Counted from the stretch's first letter, positions 1 to 18,744 are shown. The stretch is DNA of 20,222 bases from a virus (IMGVR_UViG_3300030061_002624:2047-22268), one strand, 5' to 3'. The notes: generated from the sequence alone by a model not told the origin. A program made the numbers and translations.

Positions 1-80
1 CCTATAGTGTAACCTTTGTAAATTTTGTTGTCTAGTTTTATCTTAGACCTGTCTGAGGGATAAAATTTTATTGTTTTCAT
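1..80 (-). CDS. Small phage protein, partial (runs off left edge)
   Basis: An ATG at 80-78 opens a frame that stays open to the window edge for 26 codons (MKTIKFYPSDRSKIKLDNKI...). A promoter-like element copy (83-117) lies only 3 bp upstream, so this is probably the first gene of a further minus-strand unit outside the window. With the -10-like GATAAT at 86-91, the transcript would start almost at the ATG, giving a leaderless or near-leaderless mRNA. The protein family was not recognised and the 3' end is missing. Confidence 0.5.
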   Translation of the reverse strand, partial: MKTIKFYPSDRSKIKLDNKIYKGYTI

Positions 81-82
81 AT

Positions 83-117
83 ATAATTATCGTTGTAGTT
101 ATGTAATTAGTTTGTAT
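83..117 (-). promoter_or_regulatory. Early promoter-like element, copy 1
   Basis: On the + strand this matches the repeated element TATATTATCTT-N6-TTTGTATTTAGTTTGTAA. The 18-nt half matches at 15 of 18 positions and the distance from the conserved TATC to the GTA is the same as in the other copies. Read on the minus strand it is a TAC-11-bp-TAC box followed by GATAAT. It precedes the partial gene starting at 80. Confidence 0.55.
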
Positions 118-118
118 T

Positions 119-271
119 TTATTTATTAGTTAATTTTCTTACTTCTTCTCCTAAATCTGCATTATTAGGATATTTTTTTGCTAATTCTTTCACTTGTAAC
201 CATCTTAGTTTTGGTATTGCAGTTTCTTGTTGGTGTTGCATATACTCTTGTACTGTTCTAAAATCACTCAT
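119..271 (-). CDS. Small hypothetical protein, 50 aa
   Basis: ATG at 271, TAA at 121-119. The product is a short charged protein (MSDFRTVQEYMQHQQETA...) with a predicted helical, Lys/Glu-rich C-terminal half and no membrane segment. It is the last gene of the minus-strand string that starts at 2022. Its ATG overlaps the TGA of the upstream gene as ATGA (271-268), suggesting translational coupling. Family not recognised. Confidence 0.6.
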   Translation of the reverse strand: MSDFRTVQEYMQHQQETAIPKLRWLQVKELAKKYPNNADLGEEVRKLTNK

Positions 272-471
272 ATCTCTTCAAATTTTATAGAACTACCAGC
301 GTCAAACCAGGTATGCTCAGGATCTATAGTTAATTCACCTTCGTATATTTTTCTAGCTTGGTTGTGAGCATATTGCCATTTTTGTGTTTCTGTACCTGCT
401 TTTTGTGTACTTCCGTAGTATCCGGCTAAGATATCTTTTGTTATAGCCTCTATTGCTTGTATTTCAGTCAT
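268..471 (-). CDS. Small hypothetical protein, 67 aa
   Basis: I chose the ATG at 471 (MTEIQAIEAITKD...). A TTG two codons further upstream (477) is also in frame, but the ATG fits the tight overlaps seen throughout this string. The protein is soluble, with an N-terminal helix and a YYGSTQKAGTETQKW segment in the middle. It overlaps the upstream gene by 8 nt (464-471) and the downstream gene by 4 nt. No function can be assigned. Confidence 0.65.
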   Translation of the reverse strand: MTEIQAIEAITKDILAGYYGSTQKAGTETQKWQYAHNQARKIYEGELTIDPEHTWFDAGSSIKFEEI

Positions 472-607
472 ATTCAATATAATTTAATTCTTGACTTAAT
501 TCTTCGATTAATTCACGCAGAAAATCTGCTTGTTCTTCTGGATCTTCAAAGTGGTTTCTAAAGTTATCATACACTTCATCCATTATTCTGCTTACGTATT
601 TACTCAT
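464..607 (-). CDS. Small acidic hypothetical protein, 47 aa
   Basis: ATG at 607, TGA at 466-464. The sequence (MSKYVSRIMDEVYDNFRNHF...) is strongly acidic in its second half (FEDPEEQADFLRELIEEL) and looks wholly helical. It overlaps both neighbours by 8 nt, in the same polarity, so it belongs to the same transcript. Family not recognised; support is the open frame, the overlaps and a protein-like composition. Confidence 0.6.
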   Translation of the reverse strand: MSKYVSRIMDEVYDNFRNHFEDPEEQADFLRELIEELSQELNYIEYD

Positions 608-791
608 TATTTATAATTTCTTGTATATATTCTTTATCTTCTACTATTTGTTCAGCAAGATCTAGTATATCTTTTAAACCATCTAGTTCATAGTTGTTTA
701 AGTCGTGTATATCACCTTGTCTTATAGCATTTACACAGTCTACTAAATCTCTTGCAGTGTTTTCAAATCTGCAGTAACTCATATTTGCCAT
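600..791 (-). CDS. Conserved small phage protein with MSYCRFENT start, 63 aa
   Basis: Starts at ATG 791, or at the internal ATG 782 giving MSYCRFENTARDLVDC. I recognise this N-terminus from many small proteins of uncultured aquatic phages; it has no known activity that I can name. Features are Cys7 and Cys19 (counting from 791), then an amphipathic helix with Leu/Glu-rich repeats (LKDILDLAEQIVEDKEYI). The gene overlaps the downstream gene by 8 nt. The family recognition is from memory and would need a profile search. Confidence 0.7.
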   Translation of the reverse strand: MANMSYCRFENTARDLVDCVNAIRQGDIHDLNNYELDGLKDILDLAEQIVEDKEYIQEIINNE

Positions 792-793
792 AA

Positions 794-964
794 TTATTTA
801 GTTAATTCTTTTAGTATTTTATTTATTAGTATGTCAGCATCGGCTACATACTTGTCGTCAGTTTCGGTGTAACCTAGTTCTTCAAACATATAATAGTCTA
901 ACTCGTTGTATATAGTATTGACAACTCTGTCACATACTCTATCTATTACTTCTTGCTCAGTCAT
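794..964 (-). CDS. Small hypothetical protein, 56 aa
   Basis: ATG at 964, TAA at 796-794. MTEQEVIDRVCDRVVNTIYN opens a short acidic helical protein with Tyr-rich middle (ELDYYMFEELGYTETDD). The ATG overlaps the upstream TGA as ATGA (964-961). A 2-nt gap separates it from the next gene. No recognised domain. Confidence 0.6.
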   Translation of the reverse strand: MTEQEVIDRVCDRVVNTIYNELDYYMFEELGYTETDDKYVADADILINKILKELTK

Positions 965-1248
965 ATTAATTCAAGTTTATTTAGTAATTCTTTTGATTTA
1001 TACTTTAACATACTATTACCATGATTGTCTAGTATCATTCTATGTAATACGCTAGATACTTTGTGAGTTCCATCCACCATGAAAGTTCTAGCATCACTTG
1101 CGTTACTTTCTTTGAAGTCATAGAACATAGATCCACCATACTTGTTTGATAGTTTTTCTAAATCAGATATGAAGTCGTTAACTATTTCTCTGCATTCTGC
1201 ACTTACTCTTTCTTGTAATGCTTTTTCTATTGCGTTAGTACTATTCAT
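961..1248 (-). CDS. Hypothetical protein, 95 aa
   Basis: ATG at 1248, TGA at 963-961. The N-terminal 35 residues look like one long amphipathic helix (ERVSAECREIVNDFISDLEK), followed by a more mixed segment with YGGSMFYDF and a Lys/Leu-rich C-terminal helix. It has no membrane segment or catalytic motif that I can name. ATGA overlaps on both sides put it firmly in the minus-strand string transcribed from the element at 2030-2064. Confidence 0.7.
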   Translation of the reverse strand: MNSTNAIEKALQERVSAECREIVNDFISDLEKLSNKYGGSMFYDFKESNASDARTFMVDGTHKVSSVLHRMILDNHGNSMLKYKSKELLNKLELI

Positions 1249-1397
1249 TTCTTTTTATTCTTTAATTCGTTAATCTCACTTTTCAACTGGTGGATTTCAG
1301 TTTGGCACTTCTTCATTTGTGCTTTCATTTTTCTGTCTTGGTAAAATTGATTCCAAGAATATAAATTTTGTATTTGCTTAATTTTTCTACTTATCAT
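1245..1397 (-). CDS. Small basic coiled-coil-like protein, 50 aa
   Basis: ATG at 1397, TGA at 1247-1245. The product is Lys-rich (MISRKIKQIQNLYSWNQFYQ then DRKMKAQMKKCQTEIHQLKS) and its C-terminal half has a heptad-like spacing ending in a KNKKK tail. It overlaps the upstream lipoprotein gene by 11 nt and the downstream gene by 4 nt. Family not recognised; nucleic-acid binding is possible from the charge but unproven. Confidence 0.6.
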   Translation of the reverse strand: MISRKIKQIQNLYSWNQFYQDRKMKAQMKKCQTEIHQLKSEINELKNKKK

Positions 1398-1602
1398 TTT
1401 TTTTATTTTTAATTTGTTCTAAATCATATATTACTGTTTCTAATACTAGAAAGTAACTATTTGCATTTTTATGTGGAATTTCCTGCCACTCGTAATCTTG
1501 CTTTACCCATTCTTGTAATGTTTCTAAGTTTTTAATACTTTGATTAATGTTCTTAGTAGTGTTACAAGATGTTAAAACTAATATTAATGCTATTTTTTTC
1601 AT
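1387..1602 (-). CDS. Putative small lipoprotein, 71 aa
   Basis: ATG at 1602, TAG at 1389-1387. The first 13 residues MKKIALILVLTSC form a compact lipoprotein signal: two lysines, a hydrophobic stretch and a lipobox LTSC with Cys13 as the lipidated residue. The mature part is soluble, mostly helical and rich in Trp/Tyr/Glu. The hydrophobic core is short, so processing is likely but not certain. In an early phage block, a lipoprotein could act at the envelope, for instance in superinfection exclusion; that role is inference. It neighbours a membrane protein gene (1602-1766). Confidence 0.65.
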   Translation of the reverse strand: MKKIALILVLTSCNTTKNINQSIKNLETLQEWVKQDYEWQEIPHKNANSYFLVLETVIYDLEQIKNKKNDK

Positions 1603-1766
1603 TAGAATAAGTAATTAAAAAAGAAAACGAACATATTTTTTAAAGCTATTACCATAGTTGGTACCCATATAGCTAAGAATATAGTTGTCATAATTTTAGC
1701 ATATACTTTTAACATTTTTTCTTCTACTGCTTTATAACAGAATTTAATTATTGCTTGTTTAACCAT
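1602..1766 (-). CDS. Small membrane protein, 54 aa
   Basis: ATG at 1766, TAA at 1604-1602; the stop shares one base with the ATG of the lipoprotein gene (TAATG). About 20 basic/amphipathic residues (MVKQAIIKFCYKAVEEKMLK) precede a hydrophobic segment at about residues 26-42 (TTIFLAIWVPTMVIAL), and the C-terminus is also hydrophobic (FVFFFNYLF). One or two membrane passes are likely. Coupling with the lipoprotein suggests a joint envelope role, which is inference. Confidence 0.6.
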   Translation of the reverse strand: MVKQAIIKFCYKAVEEKMLKVYAKIMTTIFLAIWVPTMVIALKNMFVFFFNYLF

Positions 1767-2022
1767 TTTTATATTGTTTAATTTTGGTTAGTAACTCGTG
1801 TATTTCTTCGTTTGGAAAGGTAGAATACACCTCATCTACCTTATTACTTACATAATCGTAAGTGAATTCGTTATCTTCAACACCGTAATGACTTACAATT
1901 AGTTCTCGTTTATCCCAACCATAAGGACTATGGTAAGCTTTAAAGATCGCTAGCTTCATTCCGCCATCATTGAATATCATAGCGTCGAGATGTTTTGTAG
2001 TTATGTATGTCACGTTGTTCAT
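1759..2022 (-). CDS. Hypothetical protein, 87 aa; first gene of the long minus-strand string
   Basis: ATG at 2022, TAA at 1761-1759. The product (MNNVTYITTKHLDAMIFNDG...) looks like a small alpha/beta protein with an aromatic middle (YHSPYGWDKRELIVSHYGVE) and a helical end. The promoter-like element at 2030-2064 ends only 7 bp upstream of the ATG, implying a very short leader or none. Internal Met15 (1980) is an alternative start if a normal leader is needed. It overlaps the next gene by 8 nt. Family not recognised. Confidence 0.65.
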   Translation of the reverse strand: MNNVTYITTKHLDAMIFNDGGMKLAIFKAYHSPYGWDKRELIVSHYGVEDNEFTYDYVSNKVDEVYSTFPNEEIHELLTKIKQYKNG

Positions 2023-2029
2023 ATTTTAT

Positions 2030-2064
2030 TATATTATCTTTTCTTGTTTGTATTTAGTTTGTAA
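2030..2064 (-). promoter_or_regulatory. Early promoter-like element, copy 2
   Basis: Perfect match to the consensus: TATATTATCTT, six spacer bases, TTTGTATTTAGTTTGTAA on the + strand. On the minus strand this is TTACAAACTAAATACAAA, with TACAAAC repeated at an 11-bp period, followed by AAGATAATATA. It overlaps the last codons of the gene at 2054-2155 and stands before the string that begins at 2022. Confidence 0.7.
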
Positions 2065-2155
2065 CATATGCACATAGTATTGTTACTACTGCACATAATA
2101 TGAAGTATAATATTACTTCACTGCCTGTTGTTGAGAAATCAGTTTTCTTTTTCAT
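2054..2155 (-). CDS. Membrane micropeptide, 33 aa
   Basis: ATG at 2155, TAA at 2056-2054. MKKKTDFSTTGSEVILYFIL is followed by a hydrophobic stretch to about residue 30 (CAVVTILCAYV), so this looks like a single-pass N-in membrane peptide. Its ATG overlaps the TGA of the 26-aa ORF upstream (ATGA, 2155-2152). The last codons, including its stop, are the conserved promoter box, so coding and promoter functions share the same bases. Too short for homology; supported by coupling and composition. Confidence 0.45.
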   Translation of the reverse strand: MKKKTDFSTTGSEVILYFILCAVVTILCAYVTN

Positions 2156-2232
2156 TTTATTATTTCTATTATTATATCAATTAGTATTATTGTAGTTATT
2201 ATTATTGGTGCTATTGCTATTATTAAAATCAT
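2152..2232 (-). CDS. Hydrophobic micropeptide, 26 aa
   Basis: ATG at 2232, TGA at 2154-2152. The peptide is almost only Ile/Leu/Ala/Thr (MILIIAIAPIIITTIILIDI) with a short acidic end, so it would be a single membrane helix. It is joined by ATGA overlaps to the genes on both sides, the main evidence that it is translated. The ATT/ATA-rich sequence could also give such a frame by chance, so confidence is modest. Confidence 0.35.
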   Translation of the reverse strand: MILIIAIAPIIITTIILIDIIIEIIK

Positions 2233-2429
2233 AGTATTTGACTTAGTATTGTATAAAGATTATCTTGTTTGTCTTTACTTAATTCAGTGAATTTTTTCAC
2301 ACCACCATCATAGTTGTGTAAGTGATTAATAATTTGCTGAGTACATTCAGCTTGTTTTACTGTCTTTTCCATTTCTGCAAATGCTTTAGACCAAGACCAG
2401 TTTGAAGGAGAGTTAGGATTGTAAGCCAT
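2229..2429 (-). CDS. Hypothetical protein, 66 aa
   Basis: ATG at 2429, TGA at 2231-2229. MAYNPNSPSNWSWSKAFAEM leads into a Lys/Gln-rich helical body with one Cys (AECTQQIINHLHNYDGGVKK). It is soluble and not recognised. It is the first gene after the element at 2532-2566, with a roughly 100-nt leader that contains a possible hairpin (2470-2510), unlike the short leaders of its neighbours. Confidence 0.6.
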   Translation of the reverse strand: MAYNPNSPSNWSWSKAFAEMEKTVKQAECTQQIINHLHNYDGGVKKFTELSKDKQDNLYTILSQIL

Positions 2430-2469
2430 AATATTTAGTTTTTAAAGGTTAATAAATTAGTTTTGGTGG

Positions 2470-2510
2470 CGTCAAGTGTTCGTATTATTTATACATGCTA
2501 AAGTATGACG
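2470..2510 (-). promoter_or_regulatory. Possible structured leader of the 2429 gene
   Basis: CGTCA (2470-2474) can pair with TGACG (2506-2510), and inside it GTAT (2482-2485) with ATAC (2491-2494). This lies between the promoter-like element and the gene, in the longest leader of the left arm. The stems are only 5 and 4 bp, so a regulatory role is uncertain. Confidence 0.25.
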
Positions 2511-2531
2511 ATCAACTACATGTTTTGTTTA

Positions 2532-2566
2532 TATATTATCTTACTACTTTTGTATTCAGTTTGTGA
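2532..2566 (-). promoter_or_regulatory. Early promoter-like element, copy 3
   Basis: TATATTATCTT, six spacer bases, then TTTGTATTCAGTTTGTGA on the + strand: full match in the -10 half and 16 of 18 in the TAC-repeat half. It directs transcription leftwards to the genes at 2429, 2232 and 2155 and starts right after the stop of the gene at 2568-2756. Confidence 0.65.
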
Positions 2567-2567
2567 T

Positions 2568-2756
2568 TTACAAAAAGGCTTGAGCAATAACTTCTGTAAG
2601 TACTATGCAGAATAAGCCAGTGAATATTATAGTGCATAAAGCAGCACAGATTTCAGTTTCATATTTACTTAATATGTTTTTAGTTTTATTAAAAATTGAT
2701 TTCATAAAGGTGTATATTAGTTTATTTATTATTTTAGTTGATGAGGTACAACACAT
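2568..2756 (-). CDS. Single-pass membrane protein, 62 aa (or 45 aa)
   Basis: The longest frame starts at ATG 2756. Since the -10-like GATAAT lies at 2765-2770, an mRNA would start almost at that ATG; the internal ATG at 2705 (MKSIFNKTKNILSKYETEIC) has a normal leader and may be the true start. The C-terminal half is a clear membrane helix (AALCTIIFTGLFCIVLTEVI). The positively charged N-terminal part suggests N-in topology. No family recognised. Confidence 0.5.
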   Translation of the reverse strand: MCCTSSTKIINKLIYTFMKSIFNKTKNILSKYETEICAALCTIIFTGLFCIVLTEVIAQAFL

Positions 2757-2761
2757 GACTT

Positions 2762-2796
2762 CTCATTATCTTACATAGATATTAAATATATTTATA
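2762..2796 (-). promoter_or_regulatory. Early promoter-like element, degenerate copy 4
   Basis: The -10 half is kept (ATTATCTT at 2765-2772), but the TAC-repeat half is largely lost (about 8 of 18 positions match). It stands before the gene at 2568-2756, in the position where the other copies occur. It may be a weaker or differently controlled promoter. Confidence 0.4.
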
Positions 2797-2810
2797 TTTA
2801 AGTGTTATAT

Positions 2811-2851
2811 GACATTAGCCTATTAGTTATATATAGTAACAGGCTAGTGTC
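2811..2851 (-). terminator. Strong inverted repeat after the 2860-3099 gene
   Basis: Arms GACATTAGCCT (2811-2821) and AGGCTAGTGTC (2841-2851) pair at 10 of 11 positions around a 19-nt loop that can itself form a GTTA/TAAC stem. It begins 8 bases past the stop at 2860 in the reading direction, where a terminator would sit. There is no U-run on the minus strand, so it could instead be an RNA-processing or stability element. Confidence 0.5.
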
Positions 2852-2859
2852 ACATGCTA

Positions 2860-3099
2860 CTACTCACTTACTGTAGCTAATTCTCTGCAGAATTTTGGTA
2901 CAATATTTGAGTTAGTATAGCTTTTGTATTCTTGAAAGCAATTCATAGTTTCAAACTTTTCTTGAAATGTTGAGTATATTTCATCATGATCATAAGTATA
3001 AGTTATACCTTTTGAGTTAGTGAAAGTGATTATTGCATTTTGGCCAATTAATGACTTTCTGATTACAAATCTTTTAGTTGTTAAGTTATTAGTTTTCAT
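2860..3099 (-). CDS. Hypothetical protein, 79 aa
   Basis: ATG at 3099, TAG at 2862-2860. The product (MKTNNLTTKRFVIRKSLIGQ...) has a beta-rich start with FVIRKSLIGQNAIITFTNSKG and a helical end containing YSTFQEKFETMNCF. It stands alone, with its own promoter-like element at 3141-3175, an A-rich AAAT-repeat leader of about 40 nt with no Shine-Dalgarno, and a hairpin downstream. Family not recognised. Confidence 0.65.
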   Translation of the reverse strand: MKTNNLTTKRFVIRKSLIGQNAIITFTNSKGITYTYDHDEIYSTFQEKFETMNCFQEYKSYTNSNIVPKFCRELATVSE

Positions 3100-3140
3100 A
3101 TTTATTTATTTTATTTATTTATATTTATTTATTTAGTTTA

Positions 3141-3175
3141 TATATTATCTTAATTAGTTTGTATTTAGTTTGTAA
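3141..3175 (-). promoter_or_regulatory. Early promoter-like element, copy 5
   Basis: Perfect TATATTATCTT and perfect TTTGTATTTAGTTTGTAA halves with six bases between them. On the minus strand the TACAAACTAA unit occurs twice at an 11-bp period. It lies directly after the stop of the gene at 3179-3424 and serves the gene starting at 3099. Confidence 0.7.
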
Positions 3176-3178
3176 TTA

Positions 3179-3424
3179 TTATTGTTGAATATTAATTAGT
3201 AAGTATGACTCGTCAGATAAGTGACATGAGTGATGAGAGAATTCAACATTATATTTAATTAGTTCTTTAGCGACTTTCATTATATTATGTATGAAGCTGT
3301 AGACGATTAGTTGATCTTCCATATTTTTCATATTTAGTCTTTCATATAATTCAGAGTAATCTGGATTGTCGATGAGGTATTCATGATTGTCATTTAGTAC
3401 TGGTAGTTTAGTTAAATCTAGCAT
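3179..3424 (-). CDS. Hypothetical protein, 81 aa
   Basis: ATG at 3424, TAA at 3181-3179. MLDLTKLPVLNDNHEYLIDN is followed by a helical middle (DYSELYERLNMKNMEDQLIV) and a His/Ser-rich segment VEFSHHSCHLSDESYLLI near the end; the HHSCH cluster could bind a metal, which is speculation. Single-gene unit with its own element at 3459-3493 and a leader of TTTA/AAAT tetranucleotide repeats. Family not recognised. Confidence 0.65.
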   Translation of the reverse strand: MLDLTKLPVLNDNHEYLIDNPDYSELYERLNMKNMEDQLIVYSFIHNIMKVAKELIKYNVEFSHHSCHLSDESYLLINIQQ

Positions 3425-3458
3425 AGTTATTTATTTATTTATTTATTAGTTATTATAT

Positions 3459-3493
3459 TATATTATCTTAGTTTAATTGTATTTATATTGTAG
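3459..3493 (-). promoter_or_regulatory. Early promoter-like element, copy 6
   Basis: Perfect TATATTATCTT half; the second half ATTGTATTTATATTGTAG keeps GTATTTA and TTGTA at the exact distance. On the minus strand TACAAT occurs twice, 11 bp apart. It is about 35 bp upstream of the ATG at 3424. The 76 bp between it and the gene stop at 3570 show no further gene. Confidence 0.6.
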
Positions 3494-3569
3494 TTTTGCT
3501 TTTATAAATTCATATTTGATAAACCTGGGAATTATAAAACTAACAGGGCTTTGTGTTGCTTAATATGAT

Positions 3570-3710
3570 TTATGATTGATAATCAGGTAAATCATTATGA
3601 GCTTGCATAAACTTGTAATGCATTGGATGATTAGTATAATGCCAGCCAGCTTGTAGCATTTCATAAAGGTTAGTAATTTCTTGAGATTGTTTTTTAGTTA
3701 AATTATTCAT
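3570..3710 (-). CDS. Small hypothetical protein, 46 aa
   Basis: ATG at 3710, TAA at 3572-3570. MNNLTKKQSQEITNLYEMLQ forms a likely helix, followed by an aromatic/His-rich end (AGWHYTNHPMHYKFMQAHND). It has its own promoter-like element (3730-3764), and its leader ends AACTTAAAATAAATAAT-ATG, nearly identical to that of the next gene upstream. Too short to classify. Confidence 0.55.
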   Translation of the reverse strand: MNNLTKKQSQEITNLYEMLQAGWHYTNHPMHYKFMQAHNDLPDYQS

Positions 3711-3729
3711 ATTATTTATTTTAAGTTAT

Positions 3730-3764
3730 TATATTATCTTTATTGCTATGTATTTAAATCGTAA
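3730..3764 (-). promoter_or_regulatory. Early promoter-like element, copy 7
   Basis: Perfect TATATTATCTT half with the six-base spacer; the second half TATGTATTTAAATCGTAA keeps GTATTTA and GTAA. TAC boxes on the minus strand are 11 bp apart. It lies directly downstream of the 32-aa ORF (3765-3863) and serves the gene at 3710. Confidence 0.6.
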
Positions 3765-3863
3765 TTATAGTATTATGTTAGCTAATTGATATACGAAGTT
3801 GATGAGGTTAAGAACGAATAGAGTTAAAGCGATGTTGAAAGTTATTAATTTTAATTTATACAT
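3765..3863 (-). CDS. Membrane micropeptide, 32 aa
   Basis: ATG at 3863, TAA at 3767-3765. After MYKLK the peptide is one hydrophobic helix (LITFNIALTLFVLNLINFVY) with a short tail. It has its own promoter-like element at 3899-3933 and a leader nearly identical to that of the gene at 3710, which favours real expression. It is the gene nearest the divergent spacer on the minus strand. Confidence 0.45.
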   Translation of the reverse strand: MYKLKLITFNIALTLFVLNLINFVYQLANIIL

Positions 3864-3898
3864 TTTATTTATTTTAAGTTATTAATTATTGATTACAT

Positions 3899-3933
3899 TA
3901 TATTATCTTAAACCACTCGTATATACATTGTAA
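3899..3933 (-). promoter_or_regulatory. Early promoter-like element, copy 8
   Basis: Perfect TATATTATCTT half; second half CTCGTATATACATTGTAA keeps GTAT and TTGTAA. The minus-strand TAC boxes are 11 bp apart. It is the outermost copy, at the left edge of the divergent spacer, and drives the 32-aa ORF. Confidence 0.6.
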
Positions 3934-6420: not shown

Positions 6421-6460
6421 TTTCTACATACCGTAGAAAACCAAACTATCAAGTGATAGT
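6421..6460 (+). terminator. Two tandem hairpins after the fibre gene
   Basis: Hairpin 1: TTTCTAC (6421-6427) and GTAGAAA (6433-6439) around ATACC. Hairpin 2: ACTATC (6445-6450) and GATAGT (6455-6460) around AAGT. They fill the 80-base gap between two co-oriented genes. Neither is followed by a U-run, so they may be a weak terminator, an RNA-processing site or mRNA stabilisers. Confidence 0.4.
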
Positions 6461-6496
6461 ATAAATAACCAACGTTAAACATAAAACCAAAATAAA

Positions 6497-7772: not shown

Positions 7773-7844
7773 ATGGGATACACAACAAAGCCAAAGCCAA
7801 AGCCAAAGCCAAAGCCAAAGCCAAAGCCAAAGCCTAAAAAATAA
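7773..7844 (+). CDS. Lys-Pro repeat micro-ORF, MGYTT(KP)8KK, 23 aa
   Basis: ATG at 7773, TAA at 7842-7844. After MGYTT come eight Lys-Pro pairs and two lysines, encoded by a perfect AAGCCA hexamer array. A KP-repeat peptide would be extended (polyproline-like) and strongly basic. It lies 11 bases after the coiled-coil gene and 26 bases before groEL. The ATG context (TATT-ATG) is like that of neighbouring genes, which supports translation, but the repeat could also just be a DNA element. Confidence 0.45.
   Translation: MGYTTKPKPKPKPKPKPKPKPKK
7788..7835 (+). repeat. Hexanucleotide tandem repeat (AAGCCA)8
   Basis: Eight consecutive AAGCCA units, the last ending in T. It is the only long perfect microsatellite in the late arm. 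Such arrays change length by replication slippage; each step of 6 bp keeps the reading frame, changing the peptide by one KP pair. Confidence 0.85.
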
Positions 7845-17912: not shown

Positions 17913-18139
17913 TGAATAATGTTATTAGAAAAATAAGCATTGGCGCGGATTATAAAAACGAAGCCATGCATTACTCTGTTGGTCAACAAGTGTATGGAGG
18001 TCATACGATATCTAATATACTTTATAAACCAAATGACAACTCTTATAATATATTTATATCTAAAGAAAACGAAGTTATGCCATGGAAGAAATTTAATTCT
18101 AACATGGCTATATCCGTTGAATATGATTTAGAATATTAA
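17912..18139 (+). CDS. Conserved phage protein, 75 aa
   Basis: ATG at 17912 overlapping the previous stop (TAATG) and its own stop overlapping the next start at 18139 (TAATG). MNNVIRKISIGADYKNEAMH, followed by YSVGQQVYGGHTISNILYKP and VMPWKKFNSNMAISVEYDLE, is a family I recall from uncultured phages: short, beta-rich, no assigned function. It belongs to a coupled gene string with the tandem GroES-like protein. Confidence 0.7.
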   Translation: MNNVIRKISIGADYKNEAMHYSVGQQVYGGHTISNILYKPNDNSYNIFISKENEVMPWKKFNSNMAISVEYDLEY

Positions 18140-18744
18140 TGAAGTCTTTATATAAATTTATTATATCTCCACTTAATGAGAGATACGACAATACAATAAA
18201 AGTAGGTGGACTTGATTTAATAACTAACACAACTATAGAAGATTATAAGTCTGTAAGTAAAAAAGCTATAGTTATTGAAACGCCATCTGCTTTTAAAAGT
18301 AAAGTCAAAAAAGGAGATCACGTAATAGTTCATCATAATATTTTTAGAAGATATTATGATATGAAGGGAAGGGAGAAAAATAGTGGATCTTATTTTAATG
18401 AAGATAAATACTTCTGTACTAGTGATCAGATATATCTTATTAAAAAAGAAAACACTTATGAAGCAAATTTAAATTATTGCTTTGTAAAACCCTTACTAAA
18501 TACCAACAAATTAAGTTTAAATAAAGAGCTTCCATTAAGAGGAGTTATTAAATATTCTAATAAATATTTAAGTGAAAAAAATATAATTGAAAACACGTTA
18601 GTAAGTTTTAATCCAAACAGTGAGTTTGAGTTTATACTAGAAGGAGAAAAATTATATTGTATGAAATCTAATAATATTGTATTAACTCATGAACACGAAG
18701 GAAACGAAAAAGAAAATAATCCAAGCTGGGCAAAAAGCCGTTGA
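18139..18744 (+). CDS. Tandem GroES-like domain protein, 201 aa
   Basis: ATG at 18139 coupled to the previous gene. Two GroES-like parts are visible. The first, residues about 4-101, has FIISPLNERYDNTIKVGGLD with GGLDL at the place of the mobile loop motif and later KGDHVIVHHNIFRRYYDMKG. The second, about 111-184, has NYCFVKPL, LPLRGVIKYS and SEFEFILEGEKLYCMKSNNI. The C-terminal EGNEKENNPSWA is a signature I recognise from Bacteroidota phage relatives. It could be a second co-chaperonin or a GroES-derived virion/assembly factor; the GroEL in this window is a likely partner. Assignment rests on pattern recognition and needs structural confirmation. Confidence 0.65.
   Translation: MKSLYKFIISPLNERYDNTIKVGGLDLITNTTIEDYKSVSKKAIVIETPSAFKSKVKKGDHVIVHHNIFRRYYDMKGREKNSGSYFNEDKYFCTSDQIYLIKKENTYEANLNYCFVKPLLNTNKLSLNKELPLRGVIKYSNKYLSEKNIIENTLVSFNPNSEFEFILEGEKLYCMKSNNIVLTHEHEGNEKENNPSWAKSR

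Follow-up and report, generated by a model that had tools for sequence, protein, structure and literature searches.

The 20,222-nt stretch analysed here (positions 2047-22268 of the 22,268-nt virus record IMGVR_UViG_3300030061_002624; hereafter the window, with positions counted from its first letter) carries a 35-bp element that recurs on the minus strand ahead of small genes, and the question raised by this locus is what the element does and which factor reads it. The initial annotation had proposed a promoter recognised by a phage-specific activator or polymerase partner, by which one factor could control the whole arm, and the comparative evidence presented below favours this proposal. We put the probability at roughly two in three that the copies are promoters of an RNA polymerase composed of the host core and a phage sigma factor, possibly with help from a helix-turn-helix (HTH) protein encoded beside sigma. 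The case for a phage-specific partner is based on a -10-like core at the right distance from a purine, the lack of enrichment of the host-type motif TAnnTTTG, and a tightly linked sigma gene.

A strand-specific element confined to one arm

Using a scoring matrix built from 344 copies of other contigs only, we found nine copies in the record, all on the minus strand and scoring 16-46 bits, with the next-best site at 0.3 bits. In first-order Markov simulations of the record the maximum score averaged -2.5, the largest single value being 15.0, and the chance expectation of exact consensus matches is 0. Two strong copies lie just left of the window (record 989-1023, 45.6 bits; record 1944-1978, 39.1 bits). 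Eight copies had been listed for the window, seven of which were recovered at their positions with 16-38 bits; the eighth, described as degenerate (2762-2796), was discarded as it scores -18.8 bits with the same matrix and has only AAGATAAT in common with the element. The spacing between the two halves of the element is indeed fixed, as claimed.

Confinement to the arm holds in the record, whose other arm contains no copies, as well as in five relatives of 50-68 kb, where every copy is located in the arm running divergently from groEL and the structural genes. Among relatives found via GroEL a first matrix gave 94 hits versus 4 in reversed sequences, and a relaxed pattern matched 30 of 50 records with about 130 matches versus 3 in the reversed control. 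A scan of viral contigs with the exact degenerate 35-mer returned no match because relatives prefer ATACGA to ATACAA, and a refined pattern was present in at least 118 stretches of IMG/VR. As judged from this comparison the element is real, highly conserved and virus-specific, a predicted promoter common to a large group of uncultured Bacteroidota phages.

Anatomy of the element and predicted transcription start

The consensus of 353 copies in relatives is TTACAAACTAAATACGA-N9-GATAATATAA. With the G of GATAAT numbered -12, the logo shows the box TTACAAACTAAATACGA (-38 to -22), then nine bases of low conservation and GATAATATAA, which starts at -12; there is no signal upstream of -40. The TAC...TAC repeat at 11 bp, noted earlier, stands out clearly, C-35 being conserved in 99% and C-24 in 90% of the copies. 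GATAATA is present in about 100%, including A-11 and T-7, the hallmarks of a sigma70-type -10 hexamer, the invariance of GATAAT being partly due to selection by the search matrix. ACAAAC at -36 to -31 is in the right place for a -35 element (16-18 bp spacing), but conservation reaches as far as -22.

The search matrix stops at -2 so that the +1 base and start codons lie outside it and constitute independent, unbiased signals. A purine occupies the position 12 nt downstream of the GATAAT G in 97% of the copies, matching a sigma70-type purine start about 7 nt past the -10 hexamer. Leaving leaderless copies aside, the composition of this position is A.58, G.39, C 0 and T.03, and nowhere else downstream is G frequent (39% here versus 0-6% at the others shown). 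The A of an ATG falls exactly at +1 in 41 copies, as opposed to 4 copies at 11 nt and 1 at 13 nt, and these 41 copies derive from 29 loci and have 40 different N-termini. In the remaining copies the start codon mostly follows an A-rich leader that ranges from a few to about 50 nt. Some copies of the record itself fit 11 nt after the G better than 12, and in three of its nine copies an ATG is located at 11-12 nt. The simplest reading of this pattern is that GATAAT is a -10 element with transcription predicted to start 11-12 nt after the G; since the purine is present at +1 in 97% and an ATG in 41 copies, about 12% of the copies are predicted to give leaderless mRNAs.

We also asked if the element could be the promoter of a T7-like single-subunit polymerase, with AATACGA as the resembling part and GATAAT as the transcript start, since AATACGA, together with the 10 nt up to GATAAT, can be aligned with TAATACGACTCACTATA and the following G. 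However, the purine and the wall of start codons lie 12 nt beyond GATAAT and not at it, and the 9 nt between the boxes are unconserved, whereas they are conserved in T7-type promoters. A PF00940 search of 30 + 20 records, run without a positive control, gave no match. We rejected this candidate on account of the displaced start signal and regard it as extremely improbable.

As stated by the initial annotation, the host-type motif is absent from the element, GATAATATA not fitting TAnnTTTG. In the window TAnnTTTG occurs 26 times versus 31.5 expected, and it is not enriched in the noncoding DNA of the 80 sigma loci described below, so that host TAnnTTTG promoters upstream of the arm were rejected. 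A generic sigma70 scan likewise revealed no excess.

A phage sigma factor is linked to the element

The 68-kb relative, G023, encodes a 252-aa sigma70-family protein on the same strand, about 2.5 kb downstream of the last copy, and homologues are present in the other GroEL-derived records that reach that region. The protein matches a PHROG sigma factor family (E 5e-16), its profile hits FliA/RpoD (2e-8 and 7e-8), and its predicted fold matches Thermus sigmaA with an E-value of 6e-7 and probability 1.0 (predicted local distance difference test, pLDDT, 79; predicted template modelling score, pTM, 0.49).

A search with the sigma alignment resulted in 80 sigma loci. At these loci 309 motif copies lie upstream on the sigma strand, 9 downstream and 1 on the opposite strand, with 0 in reversed controls, and the motif is present upstream in all of the 47 loci whose upstream flank measures 9 kb or more. 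For the reverse direction 25 contigs of 48-71 kb were picked by the exact DNA motif alone; sigma was present in 20 of them. Towards the end that is downstream with respect to transcription, the five remaining contigs extend no more than about 0.8 kb past the listed copies, i.e. they end too early to show the gene. Every sufficiently complete motif-carrying relative hence also encodes its own sigma downstream. Conversely, sigma and motif are both missing from nine related phages with complete or near-complete genomes (MW202828, elemoE and seven others), the sigma search in these phages having no built-in positive control while the same alignment matched 20 of the 25 motif-picked records. A phage sigma70-family protein is thus available in relatives, and promoter class and sigma gene co-occur.

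The strand bias bears on the idea that the element is not a promoter at all and serves instead as a binding site for a repressor or replication protein, or as a processing site, before genes. Operators or iterons could likewise take the form of conserved, repeated sites that contain a direct repeat, but neither the strict orientation with transcription (309 to 1) nor a -10-like core at a fixed distance from a purine +1, with start codons piling up at +1, fits this function, and we consider it very unlikely.

The sigma gene is accompanied by a second regulatory candidate, a 200-aa protein with a C-terminal HTH encoded directly upstream of sigma in 73 of the 80 loci and found in the same 20 of the motif-picked contigs. 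A fold search of the PDB with its model (pLDDT 84) returned nothing at E <= 0.001.

Several observations were made alongside. In two of the 20 contigs, the near-complete relatives G058 (G058:C1:55767-56520) and G071 (G071:C1:65743-66500), the sigma gene is broken by a frameshift or stop, with the promoter set still present; in G071 the HTH gene is also split. At locus L162 the promoters 6.4-9.2 kb upstream of sigma, here too a member of this family, are variants that have TTTGA(T/C)ACGAA in place of the usual box but keep GATAATA. Loci L192-L198 contain sigma homologues of 57-79% identity; their contigs, short in most cases, come from metagenome-assembled genomes that carry the labels Aliivibrio, Halieaceae, Lewinella, Ilumatobacteraceae and Sphingobacteriales and are probably of phage origin, having been binned together with hosts.

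A late-arm motif shares the core

De novo motif discovery in late-arm upstream regions yielded TATCAAGTGATARTATAAATAACC, with about 59 hits on the late strand of the GroEL loci, some of which fall in coding sequence, and 0 hits on the other strand as well as in reversed controls. In the window the candidate late-arm promoter is TATCAAGTGATAGTATAAATAACC at 6447..6470 (+), with the core GATARTATAAATA, and this core is also that of the first promoter class. One sigma might therefore serve both classes via different upstream contacts. Neither of the two motifs, early or late, occurs in MW202828 and elemoE, which thus do not reveal which class sigma reads.

Candidate readers of the element

In the model that we favour GATAAT (-12 to -7) would act as -10 element, and TTACAAACTAAATACGA (-38 to -22), with its two TAC half-sites 11 bp apart, would take the place of the host -35 element. 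Transcription would start at the purine 11-12 nt after the G, which in about 12% of the copies would be the A of the AUG. The most likely reader would be host core RNA polymerase carrying the sigma70-family protein from further downstream in the same arm, possibly assisted by the HTH protein encoded beside it. As sigma would read promoters of its own operon, positive feedback would result, and the entire block of small genes, possibly expressed early, is probably switched on by a single phage protein.

Several points weigh against this model. The sigma-positive contigs form one clade, so that joint inheritance could explain the linkage even if sigma never contacts the motif, and sigma is not seen in the 22-kb record of the window, which stops short of that region. 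If sigma reads its own operon, transcription must first be set off from elsewhere, and a host-type promoter that could serve as a starter was not recognised; leaky host transcription, a virion-delivered factor or a host sigma with an activator are possible. In view of the common core, sigma may mainly serve late genes. Moreover, a sigma70-type spacer normally lacks conserved bases at -28 to -22, so that something besides sigma may contact this region. The seven sigma loci without an HTH gene in the available flank still have an upstream box, which in four of them contains a changed half-site, TCGAAAC (TCGAAAC.TAATAC) for TACAAAC, for which the sigma region-4 sequences give no obvious explanation. 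Inspection by eye of promoter variants against sigma region 4 or the HTH helix revealed no clear pattern of covariation. Because the box is kept in these seven loci, the HTH protein appears not to be the sole reader everywhere, which weakens it as a candidate for reading the box on its own.

The upstream box is central to a rather doubtful alternative, in which a host sigma, own or alternative, is assisted by a PhoB- or MotA-like activator bound to the 11-bp repeat, and the phage sigma serves the late arm only, as in phage 7-11. The two TAC half-sites, a helical turn from each other, lie across the -35 region, an arrangement that would suit an activator binding in tandem, and the HTH protein could be this activator; in addition, the late-arm motif has an AAGT extension of its own, and transcription of the arm that feeds the sigma gene has to precede the appearance of sigma. 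On the other hand, GATAATATA does not resemble the host motif, the box persists where no HTH gene is nearby, and the nine related phages that lack sigma also lack the motif, their hosts being Flavobacteriia where known.

Sigma at the -10 element and the HTH protein on the 11-bp repeat might also act together to redirect the RNA polymerase of Bacteroidota as soon as infection starts, part of the mRNAs of the arm being leaderless and sigma or the HTH protein coming from the virion or from leaky transcription. We judge this joint scheme, in which the HTH fold has no PDB match and the bipartite promoter would be new, unlikely. The phage sigma with host core polymerase remains our preferred reader.

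Promoter copies and genes of the window

The window consists of two arms. The right arm, on the plus strand from about 4260, encodes GroEL (PHROG E 2e-135), a GroES-like protein and a holin-like protein and has weak tape-measure matches. The left arm, on the minus strand, contains small open reading frames (ORFs). The TerL of G023 matches only phages of Flavobacterium, Cellulophaga, Tenacibaculum and Maribacter plus one uncultured record, suggesting that the host is probably a member of the Flavobacteriia.

Following the predicted direction of transcription, copy 1 at 3899..3933 (-) (25.7 bits, predicted +1 at 3895/3896, leader about 32 nt) heads a 32-aa ORF at 3765-3863 (-), and copy 2 at 3730..3764 (-) (22.4 bits, predicted +1 at 3726, leader 16 nt) a 46-aa ORF at 3570-3710 (-). 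Copy 3 at 3459..3493 (-) (29.4 bits) has its predicted +1 at 3455/3456 and precedes an 81-aa ORF at 3179-3424 (-) by a leader of about 31 nt, whereas the leader is 38 nt between copy 4 at 3141..3175 (-) (38.0 bits, predicted +1 at 3137) and a 79-aa ORF at 2860-3099 (-). A 66-aa ORF at 2229-2429 (-) is headed by copy 5 at 2532..2566 (-) (29.6 bits, predicted +1 at 2528) and a structured 99-nt leader. Copy 6 at 2030..2064 (-) (37.8 bits, predicted +1 at 2026, leader 4 nt) heads a string of about ten small ORFs (50-95 aa) at 119..2022 (-), which have no assigned function, the tested ones all staying below the Pfam gathering score. Finally, copy 7 at 83..117 (-) is the weakest real copy (16.1 bits) and is predicted to be leaderless, the start ATG of its gene at 80-78 (-) lying 11 nt after the G of GATAAT; this gene leaves the window at its left end. 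It belongs to tandemly duplicated small genes (record 1790-1978 and window 1-117) that each have their own promoter copy, with the start codon placed 11 nt beyond the G of GATAAT.

The leader of copy 5 contains a conserved H-type pseudoknot RNA at 2470..2523 (-) (R1 match, 77.5 bits), about 5 nt after the predicted start of the transcript. In an analysis of six sequences 96.7% of cells were paired versus 20-42% in slid controls, 7 of 10 pairs were changed on both sides, and compensatory changes occurred in both stems. The pseudoknot is also present in L007, L008, L010, L016, L018, L057 and L074, with L074 and L016 having been added as further members by a model, and Rfam gave no match for it. 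It is possibly a regulatory leader or a small RNA. A noncoding region of L086 (record 1-2300) at about 1500-1800 (-) contains a tRNA-like T-arm (GAGAGGTTCGACTCCTCTC) and a possible acceptor stem and was not recognised by ARAGORN or Rfam; a related GGTTCGATTCCTCAC piece lies 3' of the pseudoknot in L008.

In the right arm the phage GroEL (7871-9412) and the GroES-like protein of 201 aa (18139-18744) are separated by about 9 kb. A micro-ORF, MGYTTKPKPKPKPKPKPKPKPKK, is located at 7773-7844 (+), immediately 5' of groEL, and the similar MGYSKTKPKTKPKTKK lies upstream of groEL in L025.

Relation to known systems

A phage sigma with dedicated promoters is already known, and the present case is a variant and not a new kind. 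The podovirus-type phages phiEco32 and 7-11 have their own sigma and dedicated promoters (PMC4331800, PMC8948821), those of 7-11 being bipartite, and a 2015 analysis found phage promoters also upstream of the sigma gene, arguing for feed-forward or positive feedback in both phages (PMC4331800). Their consensuses (tAATGTAtA; GTAAtg-16-aCTA) are, however, unrelated to the present element, and their sets serve middle and late genes with early promoters of the host sigma70 type, whereas here the promoters crowd the arm that precedes sigma, their upstream box spans 17 bp and about 12% of the copies are predicted to be leaderless.

The housekeeping promoter of Bacteroidota, TTTG / TAnnTTTG, has been described for Flavobacterium johnsoniae (PMC6847099). 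It shares with the element the probable host phylum and a start a few nt after the -10/-7 element, but differs in the bases at -12 to -6, and TAnnTTTG is not enriched in the arm. Most leaders of F. johnsoniae exceed 10 nt (PMC6847099), unlike the leaderless starts predicted here. Among putative Flavobacteriaceae phages, the part of the account of group 2 available to us mentions one genome with a sigma70-like gene in what are likewise GroEL-bearing uncultured marine phages; it names the gene alone and describes no promoter class (PMC5332604).

The box overlapping -35 upstream of a good -10 element also resembles the promoter layout of activator-controlled genes. The PhoB pho box, a direct repeat, and the T4 MotA box are promoters in which an activator replaces the -35 contact next to a good -10 element; their sequences are unrelated to the present one, whose activator is only putative. 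A literature search returned no description of the motif or of these promoters within the limited library searched. Compared with the sigma-encoding phages described before, the present case stands apart by its motif sequence, by a box of 17 bp upstream, by how densely the promoters populate the arm in front of sigma, by predicted leaderless starts and by being set in Bacteroidota.

Little is known about how Bacteroidota phages programme their transcription, the promoter code of their hosts being unusual. The element provides a promoter class with a start prediction at single-base resolution and a named candidate reader, testable in vitro without phage culture, and it offers an orthogonal promoter/sigma pair for Flavobacteriia. 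It would also permit annotating operons as well as early and late classes across many uncultured marine phages.

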